A stretch of DNA of 43,243 nt, taken from contig CANKII010000012.1 in NCBI GenBank assembly GCA_947482115.1, positions 1 through 43,243 on the forward strand, written 5' to 3'. Below are positions 35,175-40,807 of this stretch, piece after piece (position 1 is the stretch's first letter; each line of letters opens with the position of its first letter). The stretch is from Fibrobacterota bacterium. GTDB taxonomy: Bacteria > Fibrobacterota > Fibrobacteria > UBA11236. The position numbers and the translations under genes are program-made. A model generated the notes under the pieces. The model had not been told where the DNA came from. It made no database searches and saw nothing but the letters and a program-made list of their open reading frames with translations.

Positions 35175-36980
35175 ATGCGACCGGATTCCAACCGTCTTCG
35201 AAATTTTTGCATTATCGCACACATCGACCATGGGAAATCCACCCTGGCCGACCGCATGCTTGAGATCACGTCCACCGTATCCAAATTGAACATGCAGAAT
35301 CAAGTCTTGGACGATATGGACTTGGAACGCGAACGGGGCATTACCATCAAGTCCCATGCCATTCGCATGCGCTATATGTATCAGGGGGAGGAGTATTTCC
35401 TGAACCTGATCGATACTCCTGGGCATGTGGATTTCACCTACGAGGTTTCGCGCAGTTTGGCGGCTTGTGAAGGGGCCATTTTGGTGGTGGATGCCACACA
35501 AGGCATCGAAGCCCAAACTCTGAGTAATCTCTATCTGGCGCTTGGGAGCAATCTGACTCTCATCCCCATCCTGAATAAAATCGATTTGCCTTCGGCCCAT
35601 CCCGACGATATCGCCCAGAATTTGGGCGAACTTTTGGGATACGATCCGGATCGTATTCTGCGCGTTTCCGCCAAGGAAGGCATCGGGGTAAAAGAATTGC
35701 TGGATCGGGTTGTCGAGGATATCCCCGCTCCTAAAGCCGATCGCGAAGCGCCGCCGCGCGCCTTGATTTTTGATTCCAAATTCGATTCTTATCGCGGTGC
35801 CATTGCTTTTGTGCGCGTCTTTGACGGTATTCTGGAGCAAAAGGCTCCCATCAAACTTTGGGCGACGGGCAAAGAGTTCGAAATCACTGAAATCGGAACA
35901 TTGACCATGAACCGCATGCCTACTGAATCGCTGGCTGCGGGAGAAGTGGGCTACGTGGTTGCCAACATCAAGAATGTGAAAGACACCAAAATCGGTGACA
36001 CCATTATTGATCGGCGCCGTCCCGCCTTGGAACCACTTCAGGGTTACAAGGAAATTCAACCCATGGTTTTCGCCGGCATTTATCCGGTGGAAGCGGATGA
36101 CTTTGAAGATCTTCGCGATGCGCTGGAGAAGCTGGCCTTGAATGATCCCGCCCTGTCCTGGCAGCCTGAAACATCGCAGGCCTTGGGTTTCGGTTATCGC
36201 GTGGGTTTTCTGGGCCTGCTGCATATGGAAGTGGTTCGCGAAAGACTGGATCGAGAATTCAACATGAATGTCATCTCCACCGTTCCCAACGTGGAGTATC
36301 ATGTGCAGCTCACCAACGGCGAGGAAATCTCCATCGAGAATCCCAGCAAGTTGCCGGATCCCGGGAAAACCGAAAGCCTTGAAGAGCCCTACGTCAAATC
36401 CCAGATCATTGTGCCCAAGGATTATGTGGGTAGCGTCATGAAACTTGCCGAGGAAAAACGCGGCTTGTATCTCCACATGGAATATCTCACACCTGATAAG
36501 GTCGACCTCACCTATGAGTTTCCCTTGGGTGAAATCATGTTCGATTTCTTCGACAAGTTGAAGTCTGTCAGCAAAGGCTACGCATCATTCGACTATGAAC
36601 CCATTGGCTACCGCAAAGGTGCTCTGGTCAAATTGGACGTTCTCCTGAATGGCGATCCCGTGGATGCTTTTTCCGTGATTATCCATCGCGACAAGGCTTA
36701 TAACTGGGGCAGTGCGCTGTGTTCCAAACTCAAGGATTTGATCCCACAACAAATGTTCGAGGTGGCGATTCAGGCTGCCATCGGTGGCCGCATCATTGCC
36801 CGCACCACGGTGAAAGCTTTGCGAAAGAATGTGACAGCCAAATGCTATGGCGGTGATATCACCCGTAAACGCAAGTTGCTGGAAAAACAAAAAGAAGGCA
36901 AGAAGCGCATGAAGGCTGTGGGGCATGTTGAAATCCCCCAAGAGGCCTTCCTGGCTGTGTTGTCGATGGACAAGGAATAA
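35175..36980 (+). CDS. lepA: elongation factor 4 (LepA), back-translocating GTPase
   Basis: 601 residues from the ATG at 35175, with GGG before it; the TTG further upstream is out of character. The G domain has [32 protein letters not shown] and VSAKEG. The C-terminal domain unique to LepA is present: [38 protein letters not shown] and the closing [21 protein letters not shown]. It remodels stalled ribosomes under stress. It is divergent from the cyclophilin gene and ends at a strong terminator. Confidence 0.97.
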
Positions 36981-36984
36981 AAAA

Positions 36985-37006
36985 GGCCGTCCCTTTCGGA
37001 ACGGCC
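36985..37006 (+). terminator. lepA terminator
   Basis: GGCCGT (36985-36990) pairs with ACGGCC (37001-37006) round CCCTTTCGGA; A before and T after make it work in both directions. It also ends the convergent leftward small-peptide gene. Confidence 0.85.
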
Positions 37007-37028
37007 TTTCCCTCATAATCCCCTCGAA

Positions 37029-37274
37029 TTACTTGGCAGCGGCCGAATCGGCCATGGCCTTCTTGTGCTTCTTGTGGTGCTTTTTCGGAGCAGCGGCGGT
37101 ATCGGCCGGAGCGGCAGCCGGAGCAGCCATCGCGGTGGAATCGGCCATCATTTTCTTGTGCTTGTGGTGCTTCTTCACGGGTGCGGTTGTGGCGGCATCA
37201 GCGGCCATGGGCGCATCAGCGGCAATAGCGGCACCAGCAAGCAGAGCGGTCAAAACGAAAGCGTATGTTTTCAT
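37029..37274 (-). CDS. small secreted Lys/His-rich protein, acid-shock (Asr) like
   Basis: 81 residues from the second Met (37274), which stands nine bases after AGGAG; the first Met abuts the site directly. A signal peptide (MKTYAFVLTALLAGAAIAA) is followed by two repeats of Ala/Pro/Thr plus KKHHKHKK: VKKHHKHKKMMADSTAMAAP, then PKKHHKKHKKAMADSAAAK. Composition and layout closely resemble the Asr acid-shock protein family, periplasmic and intrinsically disordered. Transcription is predicted from the sigma-54 promoter at 37329-37344. It belongs to the regulon of the adjacent two-component system by position. Confidence 0.8.
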   Translation of the reverse strand: MKTYAFVLTALLAGAAIAADAPMAADAATTAPVKKHHKHKKMMADSTAMAAPAAAPADTAAAPKKHHKKHKKAMADSAAAK

Positions 37275-37328
37275 GGTTTTCATCTCCTAATTCTTCCTTC
37301 CGACATGGAAGGTTCGAATGACAGTACA

Positions 37329-37344
37329 GGCAAGCTTTATGCCA
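37329..37344 (-). promoter_or_regulatory. sigma-54 promoter of the Asr-like gene
   Basis: Minus strand reads TGGCATAAAGCTTGCC: TGGCAT, N5, TTGCC. GG and GC are 12 bases apart; 9 of 11 consensus bases match, counting TGGCAC-N5-TTGCW. Predicted start near 37318, leader about 44 bases. An upstream repeat lies at 37404-37437, about 60 bases before it. Confidence 0.85.
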
Positions 37345-37403
37345 AACCCAAACCCTTAATTTTTTTGAAAAACAAAAGTTTTTTTGAATGTGAAAGTCCT
37401 GAT

Positions 37404-37437
37404 AACCCATTTGGGTTGTTCGAATAACCCGAATAAG
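37404..37437. promoter_or_regulatory. upstream activating sequence, copy 1
   Basis: AACCCATTTGGGTT (37404-37417, 6-bp arms, TT centre), then a block with TTCGAATAACCCGAAT. It repeats, with about six differences, at 37943-37976 before the second sigma-54 promoter. This position suits binding of the NtrC-type regulator encoded next door. Confidence 0.75.
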
Positions 37438-37446
37438 TCATCGTGT

Positions 37447-37815
37447 TCATTTCTTGGTCGGCCAAACCCGGATCAAAGAAGCGTTCAAGGTGTCGCCGTC
37501 TTTGTAGTATTTCACCGAAACCTTGGCCCCCGCTGAGATATCGGCAAGCGTAAGGGATTTTTTTCCGGATTGAATGAGAATCCTCGCATTGACAGGTACC
37601 GAGAAAATCCATTGGGGCTTTTTTTTGCCCTTTCCCTCAACTGTAATGGTATTTCCAACCATATCGACAGATAGGACGGTGCCTGCTGCAGTCATCGATT
37701 TAGAGGGTTTATTGATGGACATGGAAACGGATTTTTTTGCGCTTTTTGCAGAAACATCCACAGCAAAAATTCCACCTATGAGTAGTGCGCTGAGAACGCA
37801 AGCGTAAATTTTCAT
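37447..37815 (-). CDS. small secreted DUF5666-like beta-rich protein
   Basis: 122 residues from ATG at 37815, with GGAG six bases upstream; the TTG at 37827 is not needed. A signal peptide (MKIYACVLSALLIGGIFAVDVSA) is followed by Lys/Ser residues and a beta domain: AAGTVLSVDMVGNTITVEG, WIFSVPVNARILIQ, LTLADISAGAKVSVKYYKDGDTLNASLIRV. This pattern recalls the DUF5666 group (small exported beta proteins, unknown role). Expressed from the consensus sigma-54 promoter at 37868-37883. Family assignment is by pattern only. Confidence 0.72.
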   Translation of the reverse strand: MKIYACVLSALLIGGIFAVDVSAKSAKKSVSMSINKPSKSMTAAGTVLSVDMVGNTITVEGKGKKKPQWIFSVPVNARILIQSGKKSLTLADISAGAKVSVKYYKDGDTLNASLIRVWPTKK

Positions 37816-37867
37816 GGGGATCTCCAAACTTTATTTTCAACGTGAAAGGTTTTTATAGGAGACATGT

Positions 37868-37883
37868 GGCAAGGCTTGTGCCA
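37868..37883 (-). promoter_or_regulatory. sigma-54 promoter of the DUF5666-like gene
   Basis: Minus strand reads TGGCACAAGCCTTGCC: a perfect TGGCAC, five bases, TTGCC. The -24 GG and -12 GC are 12 bases apart. The predicted start lies about 40 bases before the ATG at 37815. Confidence 0.92.
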
Positions 37884-37942
37884 GAATAAAAAGCCAAATT
37901 CTATTCAAAAAGCCTTATTCGACGAAATTTAACAGGGGGGAC

Positions 37943-37976
37943 AACCCATTTGGGTTATTCAAATACTCCGAATGGG
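37943..37976. promoter_or_regulatory. upstream activating sequence, copy 2
   Basis: The same AACCCATTTGGGTT (37943-37956), then ATTCAAATACTCCGAATGGG. It lies about 60-90 bases before the sigma-54 promoter at 37868-37883 and ends directly at the stop codon of the regulator gene (37977). Confidence 0.78.
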
Positions 37977-39335
37977 CTATTGTCCTTTGAGACCAAATTT
38001 TACGGCGCGGTACTGAAAAGTTCTATAGGTCATTCCCAATAACTTTGCGGCGTCCACCATGATTCCCTGGCTGCGTTCCAATGCCTGGATCATCAAATCT
38101 CTTTCGACATCTTCAAAGATGATGCCCTCATCAGGTAAATCGAATCCGGAACCGATGGATTGTGTGGCTGTGGATTTGGGTTTTCCTTGCCTTAACTCGA
38201 CCGGTAAATCCTCAATTTGAATTTCCGAATTTCGCGTGAGGACGCTGATTCGTTCAAGCACGGCTTCCAGTTCTCTCACGTTTCCCGGCCAATCGTATCG
38301 AAGTAAAACCACAAGGGCTTCCGGAGCAATACTTTTGCGCCGCGACGGATGTGCAAGTAATTGGGACACCAAAGGAGGGATATCCTCTTTGCGTTCACGG
38401 AGCGGAGGAATGAAAATGGGGATGACATTGAGCCGGTAAAAGAGATCTTCCCGAAAGGAACCCTGACGTATGGCTTCCGGCAGGTTTCGATTCGTCGCCG
38501 CCAAAATACGGAGATCTACTGGAATCGAAGCGGTGCCTCCCACACGTCGGATTTCTCTTTCCTGCAGGACTCGAAGCAATTTGGCCTGCAGGCTTAAGGG
38601 CATATCCCCCACTTCGTCGAGAAAAAGCGTGCTGCCTTCGGCGGTTTCCAGCAGTCCAATTTTTCGGGATGTGGCTCCCGTGAACGCTCCTTTTTCGTAT
38701 CCGTACAATTCCGCTTCCAGCAAAGTTTCCGGAAAGGCGGAACAATTAATGCTCATCATCGGTTTGCCTTTTCGCGTGCTTCCGGAGTGAATGAGTTTGG
38801 CGACGCGTTCCTTCCCGGTTCCACTCTCTCCTTGAATGAGCACGGTGGAATCACTTTGGGACACAAGGCAGATGGTTTCCAAAATGGTTTTCATGATGGC
38901 GGATTCCGCCACGAGTCCCTGACCAATGTTGACTCGCGAAGCCTGTTGCCATCTTTGGGTGTCTCGACGCAGGCCGAATTTTTCCGACGCGCGTTGCACG
39001 AGCAGGACGAGTTCATCCCTGTCCAACGGTTTGTTCAGGTAATCATAGGCTCCAAGTCGCATGGCTTTTACCGCGGTGTCGACGCTGCCGAAAGCGGTCA
39101 CAACGACGACCTCCGGAGCGGGCGATAATTTCATGGCGGATTCCACCAGATGCAACCCACCCTGTCCCGGCATGCGCATGTCGGTCAGGACGACTTCACA
39201 TGCCCTTTGCTGCAAACGTTCCAGTGCCTCTTCCGCCGAACTCGCTTCAAGTACGTCATGGCCTTCACCTTTGAGAATACTGGCCATGATATGCCGTTGG
39301 GCGGAGTCATCATCCGCGATTAAAACTCTCGCCAT
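37977..39335 (-). CDS. sigma-54 dependent response regulator, NtrC/ZraR type
   Basis: 452 residues from ATG at 39335; the TGA of the kinase gene overlaps it as TGATG, with GGGAG seven bases upstream. Receiver: acidic residues at D8-D10, phospho-acceptor D52 in TDMRMPG, and Lys in LNKPLDRDEL. AAA+ domain: Walker A GESGTGKERVA, intact GAFTGA in YEKGAFTGAT, Walker B LFLDEVGDM. C-terminal Fis-like HTH ends in AAKLLGMTYRTFQYRAVKFGL. All functional residues are intact. It should activate the two sigma-54 promoters immediately downstream, and two copies of a shared upstream repeat are present. Confidence 0.95.
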   Translation of the reverse strand: MARVLIADDDSAQRHIMASILKGEGHDVLEASSAEEALERLQQRACEVVLTDMRMPGQGGLHLVESAMKLSPAPEVVVVTAFGSVDTAVKAMRLGAYDYLNKPLDRDELVLLVQRASEKFGLRRDTQRWQQASRVNIGQGLVAESAIMKTILETICLVSQSDSTVLIQGESGTGKERVAKLIHSGSTRKGKPMMSINCSAFPETLLEAELYGYEKGAFTGATSRKIGLLETAEGSTLFLDEVGDMPLSLQAKLLRVLQEREIRRVGGTASIPVDLRILAATNRNLPEAIRQGSFREDLFYRLNVIPIFIPPLRERKEDIPPLVSQLLAHPSRRKSIAPEALVVLLRYDWPGNVRELEAVLERISVLTRNSEIQIEDLPVELRQGKPKSTATQSIGSGFDLPDEGIIFEDVERDLMIQALERSQGIMVDAAKLLGMTYRTFQYRAVKFGLKGQ

Positions 39336-40807
39336 CAAACTTCTCCCGGAATCCGGATTTCAAAACAGGCGCCACCGTCCGGCCCGTTGGAAGCCAGCAC
39401 GCTTCCCCCGTGTTCTTCGGCAATGCGCTTTACCAATGCCAATCCCAAGCCAACCCCCGTATCTTTGCGGGTAAAATACGCGTCGAACACGCGCTCAACA
39501 TCATCGGGATGAATTCCGGTCCCATTGTCCCGCACGTAAAGATTCACCCATCCCTTGCCGCTTTTGTCCGTGTCGGAGCGGGCTTCAACCGCTATCCATC
39601 CCTTTTCCGGAACCGCCTCTACCGCGTTCAACAGAAGATTTAACAGGAGGAGCCGCATTTGTTCCTTGTCAGCGCGCAGTTGCAAGGCCTCCCCCACTTC
39701 ATTTCGGAGCTCGGCGTTCTTGAGGGAAAATTGGGGCCGTAAAAGCACGCGGGCTTCTTCGACCAACTCCCGCAAGGCAAACATTTCCTGATGCAATCTT
39801 CCAGGCCGGCTTGCCGAAAGAAAGTGATGGACCACTTGATTCAAATGACGGACTTCACCTTGCAGCGACTTCATCAGCTCTTCAAAGTGGGGCTGCTTTT
39901 CAGGATCTGCGGGGGTAAAGGATTCCTCGAGATGTCCTGCAGTAAGATTGATCAGGTTCAAAGGATTGCGAATTTCGTGCGCGAGACTTGCGGCCATTTC
40001 AGAAACAAGCGATTGGCGTTCGAGCTGCCGCAACCTGTCCTGCATGCTGCGCCGTTCCGCCAGACGCTCCACCATCGCGTTGAAAGCAATATTCAATTTG
40101 GCCATTTCATCGTTCCGCGGTAACTCGGGAAGACGAAGGGCGAGATCTCCCCCGGCCACTTTCGTTGCAGCGACGCTGAGTGTGCGCAAGGGTTTGTTCA
40201 GGCGGTGCAAGAGATAAGATGATGCGGCGAATGCCAGCAGCAGGGCCATCAGCGCGATCACGAGATTTTTGATCAAGGCTTCTCTCACAAGACCCCGGAA
40301 GTCGGGAAGGAGGACGGAAGTTTGCACCACGCCAATCACCTGCTGGTCGCGCAAAATCGGCACGCGGATGTCATAGTGCAGATTGCGTCCGGCCGTGTCG
40401 GGTGTGCCCAGTTCCTCGCGAATGACGATTTCTTTCCCTGTTAATTTTACCTTTCGTCCCAATTTACTTGGATTGCTGCTGGCCACGATTTCCTGATGAC
40501 TGCTGATGACATGGACTTCGCGCACGTTTTTTTGCGCGAGAGCTTCCTTCACAAAGCTCTCCAGTTTTTCCCGATCTGGTCCCTTGTCTGCGGATAATTT
40601 TTGGGTTGATAGGTGAACCGTATTGCCGATATCCTGTAAATCGTCGCCTATTTCGGTGAGAAGGCGCTGTGCGGTGCGGACATGGAAATAGGACATCAAT
40701 CCAGCCACCGCAAAAAGAAGCACGGTAAAAGCGAGAAGCAAACGGGTTTGAAGGCTCACGAGCCGAAGAATAGAAACCCTATTGGTAGATTGCCTATAAT
40801 CGCTCAA
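39335..40807 (-). CDS. membrane sensor histidine kinase of the sigma-54 two-component system
   Basis: 490 residues; start TTG at 40807, not well supported by a ribosome site. TM1 about 22-41, a periplasmic domain of about 135 residues (sensor/Cache-like, IREELGTPDTAGRNLHYDIRVP), TM2 about 181-200, HAMP, then the kinase core: H277 in SLAHEIRNPLN, N-box LLLNLLLNAVEAVPEKG, DNGTGI and VGLGLALVKRIAEEHGG. Its partner is the NtrC-type regulator, with overlapping stop and start. The promoter may use TATAAT at 40835-40840. The signal is unknown. Confidence 0.94.
   Translation of the reverse strand: MSDYRQSTNRVSILRLVSLQTRLLLAFTVLLFAVAGLMSYFHVRTAQRLLTEIGDDLQDIGNTVHLSTQKLSADKGPDREKLESFVKEALAQKNVREVHVISSHQEIVASSNPSKLGRKVKLTGKEIVIREELGTPDTAGRNLHYDIRVPILRDQQVIGVVQTSVLLPDFRGLVREALIKNLVIALMALLLAFAASSYLLHRLNKPLRTLSVAATKVAGGDLALRLPELPRNDEMAKLNIAFNAMVERLAERRSMQDRLRQLERQSLVSEMAASLAHEIRNPLNLINLTAGHLEESFTPADPEKQPHFEELMKSLQGEVRHLNQVVHHFLSASRPGRLHQEMFALRELVEEARVLLRPQFSLKNAELRNEVGEALQLRADKEQMRLLLLNLLLNAVEAVPEKGWIAVEARSDTDKSGKGWVNLYVRDNGTGIHPDDVERVFDAYFTRKDTGVGLGLALVKRIAEEHGGSVLASNGPDGGACFEIRIPGEV

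Follow-up and report, generated by a model that had tools for sequence, protein, structure and literature searches.

Two copies of a palindromic repeat in the window (the whole 43,243-nucleotide stretch of Fibrobacterota DNA that was analyzed) are very probably upstream activating sequences (UAS), i.e. bacterial enhancers, of the adjacent NtrC-type regulator, from which the promoters of two small secreted proteins would be driven. All elements lie on the minus strand, in the order kinase, regulator, operator B, promoter, target 1, operator A, promoter, target 2, and terminator. They are as follows.

39335 to 40807, minus strand: sensor histidine kinase of 490 aa (from the list of open reading frames and Pfam), its stop overlapping the regulator start.
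37977 to 39338, minus strand: NtrC-type response regulator of 453 aa (Pfam/NCBIfam; orthologues in 8 relatives).
37965 to 37978, minus strand: distal dyad of operator B, AGCCCATTCGGAGT, 22 bp from the proximal dyad; the position is occupied, but less conserved, in relatives.
37943 to 37956, minus strand: proximal dyad of operator B, AACCCAAATGGGTT, the putative UAS, kept in both genera.
37868 to 37883, minus strand: sigma-54 promoter element TGGCACAAGCCTTGCC, a consensus match 59 bp downstream of operator B.
37447 to 37815, minus strand: target 1, a small secreted protein of 122 aa, with a single-copy orthologue beside the regulator in 9 of 9 regulator-bearing genomes.
37426 to 37439, minus strand: distal dyad of operator A, GACTTATTCGGGTT, degenerate.
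37404 to 37417, minus strand: proximal dyad of operator A, AACCCAAATGGGTT.
37329 to 37344, minus strand: sigma-54 promoter element TGGCATAAAGCTTGCC, a consensus match 59 bp downstream of operator A.
37296 to 37312, minus strand: leader hairpin CCTTCC-ATGTC-GGAAGG (from folding), close to where the target 2 transcript is predicted to begin.
37029 to 37283, minus strand: target 2, a small secreted His/Lys-rich protein of 84 aa (from the list of open reading frames), with a homologue under a like operator in genome G002.
36979 to 37012, minus strand: intrinsic terminator behind target 2 (15-bp stem, T-run).

The regulator contains a receiver domain (PF00072), a sigma-54-activating AAA+ domain (PF00158), and a Fis-type helix-turn-helix domain (PF02954), all above the Pfam cut-offs, and its recognition helix reads TYRTFQYRA. 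The kinase has a periplasmic sCache_3_2 domain (weak match), together with HAMP, HisKA, and HATPase_c domains, and its orthologue adjoins the regulator in those relatives whose locus covers that position. Sigma-54 is represented in the genome of the window by one PF04552 match (rpoN, E value 5.1e-63), and all 11 genomes compared within the order have rpoN.

As the earlier note had claimed, identical copies of the 14-mer AACCCATTTGGGTT, which reads AACCCAAATGGGTT on the minus (coding) strand, are found at 37404-37417 and 37943-37956, each shortly downstream of a stop codon. When up to two mismatches are allowed, the window holds four strand-matches to the 14-mer, against 0.55 expected from 100 dinucleotide shuffles, and none of the 100 shuffled windows reached this number. 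The same note had described a 34-bp site in which the 14-mer is followed by a related block. The relatedness is confirmed, but the site is not a single unit, as the block is a degenerate second dyad 22 bp upstream. Each operator is 36 bp long and consists of tandem dyads (14 + 8 + 14 bp), with a repeat distance of 22 bp that corresponds to two helical turns. Although the distal dyads are degenerate (AGCCCATTCGGAGT in operator B and GACTTATTCGGGTT in operator A, minus strand), both retain the core ATTCGG; that of operator B shares 2 nt with the regulator stop codon. Inverted repeats are hence found upstream of a −24/−12 promoter, as expected of the UAS of a bEBP. The two copies had been placed at a similar distance, about 60-100 bases, from their promoters. 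Similar it is, but much less loose, because, edge to edge, exactly 59 bp separate proximal dyad and promoter at both window promoters. In the genus of the window this gap ranges from 58 to 61 bp, and in the other genus it measures 71, 79, 79, 80, 80, and 81 bp. These steps between genera come near one or two turns of the helix, which would fit an importance of the helix face at short loop length and is suggestive only.

Comparison with relatives carries most weight. Regulator orthologues were found in 8 related genomes, with 63-80% identity, as opposed to 45% or less for paralogues. At all 8 loci, a dyad and a sigma-54 promoter come after the regulator, and then a gene for a small secreted protein akin to target 1. 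The 150 nt behind the regulator stop contain the motif CCCANNTGGG in 8 of the 9 orthologous loci (window included), and the ninth locus, in G009, has a degenerate dyad, AACCCAAATGGTGC. Beside other regulators it was found neither in the 150 nt after the stop of 36 distant homologues nor at any of 17 paralogue loci. The dyad therefore accompanies the regulator from species to species and is missing beside its paralogues, the behavior expected of a bEBP UAS. The mean pairwise identity of the proximal dyad is 0.86-0.87, both within and between genera, whereas that of the spacer is 0.34-0.45, near the 0.30-0.35 of shuffled spacers. CCCA and ATGG in the proximal dyad do not vary among the 11 operators. 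When the second genus is aligned from regulator stop to target start, conservation between the coding sequences falls mainly on the dyad and the −24/−12 element. Conservation of the distal dyad is poor, with an identity of 0.48 from genus to genus, which makes its role doubtful. The regulator and the target 1 gene are jointly present or absent in all 11 genomes (present in 9, absent in 2), the two absences being weak evidence because the genomes concerned are only 87% and 79% complete. The named genome collection yielded only homologues of 39-47% identity, but records near the window may be omitted there.

This comparison also bears on what the identity of the two window copies can mean. From their order, distance, and partial divergence, selection had been claimed. 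Selection is supported, by conservation between species; identity within the window is insufficient proof by itself, because both promoters may descend from one by duplication. Considering that the signal peptides of the two targets are similar (MKTYAFVLTALLAGAAIA and MKIYACVLSALLIGGIFA) and that the two spacers are identical at 28 of 59 positions, duplication of the unit is plausible. However, that the copies are nothing but a recent promoter duplication, identical by common descent and not by selection on a binding site, is extremely unlikely, since the dyads agree at 14 of 14 positions though flanks and spacer have diverged, and since orthologues in the other genus keep the dyad while their spacer is near the shuffled level. 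Duplication alone is thus insufficient and was rejected; duplication combined with selection is compatible with the data.

The combination of dyad and promoter is confined to the regulator locus. The exact 14-mer has three copies in the 2.72-Mb genome, the third of which (C9:61299-61312 of G000; L001 1501-1514) lies within a methyltransferase reading frame. No sigma-54 element stands at the right distance from this copy, nor from the one-mismatch copies on C1 and C10, and the third copy is apparently coincidental. A combined pattern, in which CCCANNTGGG is followed after 57-87 bp by GGCAY-N5-TTGC, was searched with the reversed pattern as a control. It has two matches in the genome of the window and 10 across the 11 genomes of the order, all 10 at the regulator locus, and the reversed pattern has none in the same 11 genomes. 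The genome-wide search near sigma-54 promoters that the earlier note had proposed thus speaks against random scatter. A laxer half-dyad pattern gave 6 loci outside the regulator locus, compared with 7 control matches, i.e. chance level; after inspection the 6 loci count as leads only. In one case, the gene for another small secreted Lys-rich protein (L183; G004:C39:16123-16230) has a weak half-dyad, ACCCATTCGG, together with a sigma-54-like element in front of it, and is a possible extra target, though from a search at chance level.

The claim that the repeat is the operator of the regulator at 37977 is supported by this comparison, as site, regulator, recognition helix, and target are conserved together; binding is inferred. 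The recognition helix (T/S)YRTFQYRA is kept in all orthologues, with YRTFQYRA invariant. Could another DNA-binding protein, likewise active at both promoters, be what recognizes the dyad? The genome does encode other NtrC-type regulators, e.g. at C3:231126, and the pairing of this regulator with the dyad is itself deduced, but in every genome dyad and promoter occur only beside the present regulator and are missing where only paralogues occur, and the paralogues that were read have other recognition helices. We consider such a protein very unlikely. It is also highly improbable that the palindromes act as RNA hairpins, i.e. as terminators or as stems at the 3' ends of the genes upstream, instead of as DNA-binding sites. 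AACCC-AAAT-GGGTT could form a 5-bp stem (−5.1 kcal/mol), and both copies are located shortly downstream of a stop codon. However, there is no T-run behind the dyads, and a terminator scan calls neither. Both arms are conserved as sequence across genera, not through compensatory change, the sigma-54 element follows at a fixed distance of 59 bp, and in G001 the dyads are 60-100 nt away from the stop. The hairpin reading was rejected.

If the dyads are UAS of the regulator, activation would proceed by the steps reviewed for bEBPs, namely phosphorylation, oligomerization, contact with sigma-54 polymerase, and ATP-driven opening (PMC4987338). The membrane kinase would phosphorylate the regulator. 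Regulator dimers would then occupy the proximal dyad, a strong site, and with cooperativity also the weak distal one, two turns of the helix away. The assembled AAA+ ring would contact the sigma-54 RNA polymerase held at the −24/−12 element, 59 bp downstream, and its ATP hydrolysis would open the polymerase complex. Two separate short units, one encoding a CusF-fold protein and the other a His/Lys-rich peptide, would be turned on. Because dyad and promoter occur only at the regulator locus and are conserved with regulator and target, the two-component system would have a local regulon of one or two genes, the His/Lys-rich peptide being found in two species only. No dyad was found upstream of the kinase-regulator operon.

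Target 1 consists of a signal peptide, a linker, and a domain of ∼75 residues. Its AlphaFold model is a confident six-stranded barrel (pLDDT of the domain mostly 83-92), for which Foldseek returned CusF as the top PDB match (2qcp, E value 5.7e-5, TM score 0.77 by target length). According to the predicted model, the domain is a CusF-like OB fold. By sequence there is no significant match between target 1 and CusF, alignment-based searches of solved structures included, and neither target 1 nor target 2 has a Pfam/NCBIfam match above the cut-off. With the CusF/SilF family PF11604, only one of the nine target 1 members matches, at an E value of only 0.015, and all are below the cut-off. Target 1 thus resembles the periplasmic metallochaperones CusF and SilF in being secreted and having an OB fold. 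In CusF, the metal ligands are His36, Met47, and Met49 (PMC9436033), whereas the alignment of target 1 domains has no His or Met among its invariant columns; the domain shares the fold but fails the ligand test of the family.

The open reading frame of target 2 has two in-frame ATGs, at 37283 and 37274. Since the first directly abuts AGGAG, which bears on Shine-Dalgarno spacing, the predicted start is likelier at 37274, giving a protein of 81 aa. Among the loci read, a homologue was found only in G002. When its locus (L032) is set against window positions 37029-37956, the two targets prove to have changed places between these sister species, and each gene still stands behind an operator and a sigma-54 promoter. 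The leader of the His/Lys-rich gene has moved with the gene, and the operator behind the regulator stop has stayed. As the order is swapped and both operators are kept, this suggests, independently, that the two genes belong under the same control.

Literature searches found no paper on the present system. Its closest functional analogue is ZraSR-ZraP of E. coli and Salmonella, which likewise combines an NtrC-type two-component system, a tiny adjacent sigma-54 regulon, and a small periplasmic protein (PMC7657598, PMC4987338). The present system is not ZraSR, however. Both proteins fall short of the equivalog cut-offs, the regulator with 367 bits where ZraR requires 760 and the kinase with 163 where ZraS requires 479, and instead of ZraP the targets are a CusF-like OB-fold protein and a His/Lys-rich peptide. 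Moreover, ZraR controls its own operon, whereas here the kinase-regulator operon has no preceding dyad. In 39 Clostridiales groups, 65% of EBPs govern a single operon, and in most groups multiple UAS sites precede the target (PMC6615313). The present locus resembles these single-operon bEBP regulons in its few targets and its multiple UAS sites before a target, but it differs in its UAS-promoter distance, typically 100-250 bp in Clostridiales (PMC6615313) and 58-81 bp here, and in its distinctive dyad, ACCC-N4-GGGT. DAP-chip of NtrC-family regulators in D. vulgaris showed that sites are mostly inverted repeats of 4-6 bp, 3-8 bp apart, and that many targets are located next to their regulator (PMC3333781). 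AACCC-N4-GGGTT fits this format (PMC3333781). Considering that the site has a form typical of the NtrC family and that single-operon regulons with multiple UAS are common, the system belongs to a known kind.

The mechanism would be textbook sigma-54 activation, an ordinary kind of bacterial gene control. The economy is unusual, as an entire kinase-activator pair would serve one or two small secreted proteins, across two genera. From sequence alone, an otherwise anonymous two-component system is assigned both a DNA motif and a set of targets. Tentatively, the locus might be a lineage-specific switch for a metal-ligand-free CusF-fold protein, with the His/Lys-rich peptide in two species, and a previously undescribed envelope-stress module in which the secreted protein could feed back on the kinase, like ZraP on ZraS; we regard this as possible but doubtful.

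The target 2 leader itself contains the hairpin at 37296-37312 (p about 0.01 against shuffles). The orthologous leaders (L032-L039) have a short hairpin, located around +7 in one genus and around +16 to +19 in the other, and the sequence of the stem differs in most species. Their summed stem score is ∼3 SD above mononucleotide shuffles, while in the second genus single leaders do not reach significance. The leader hairpin is possibly an mRNA-stabilizing 5' stem.
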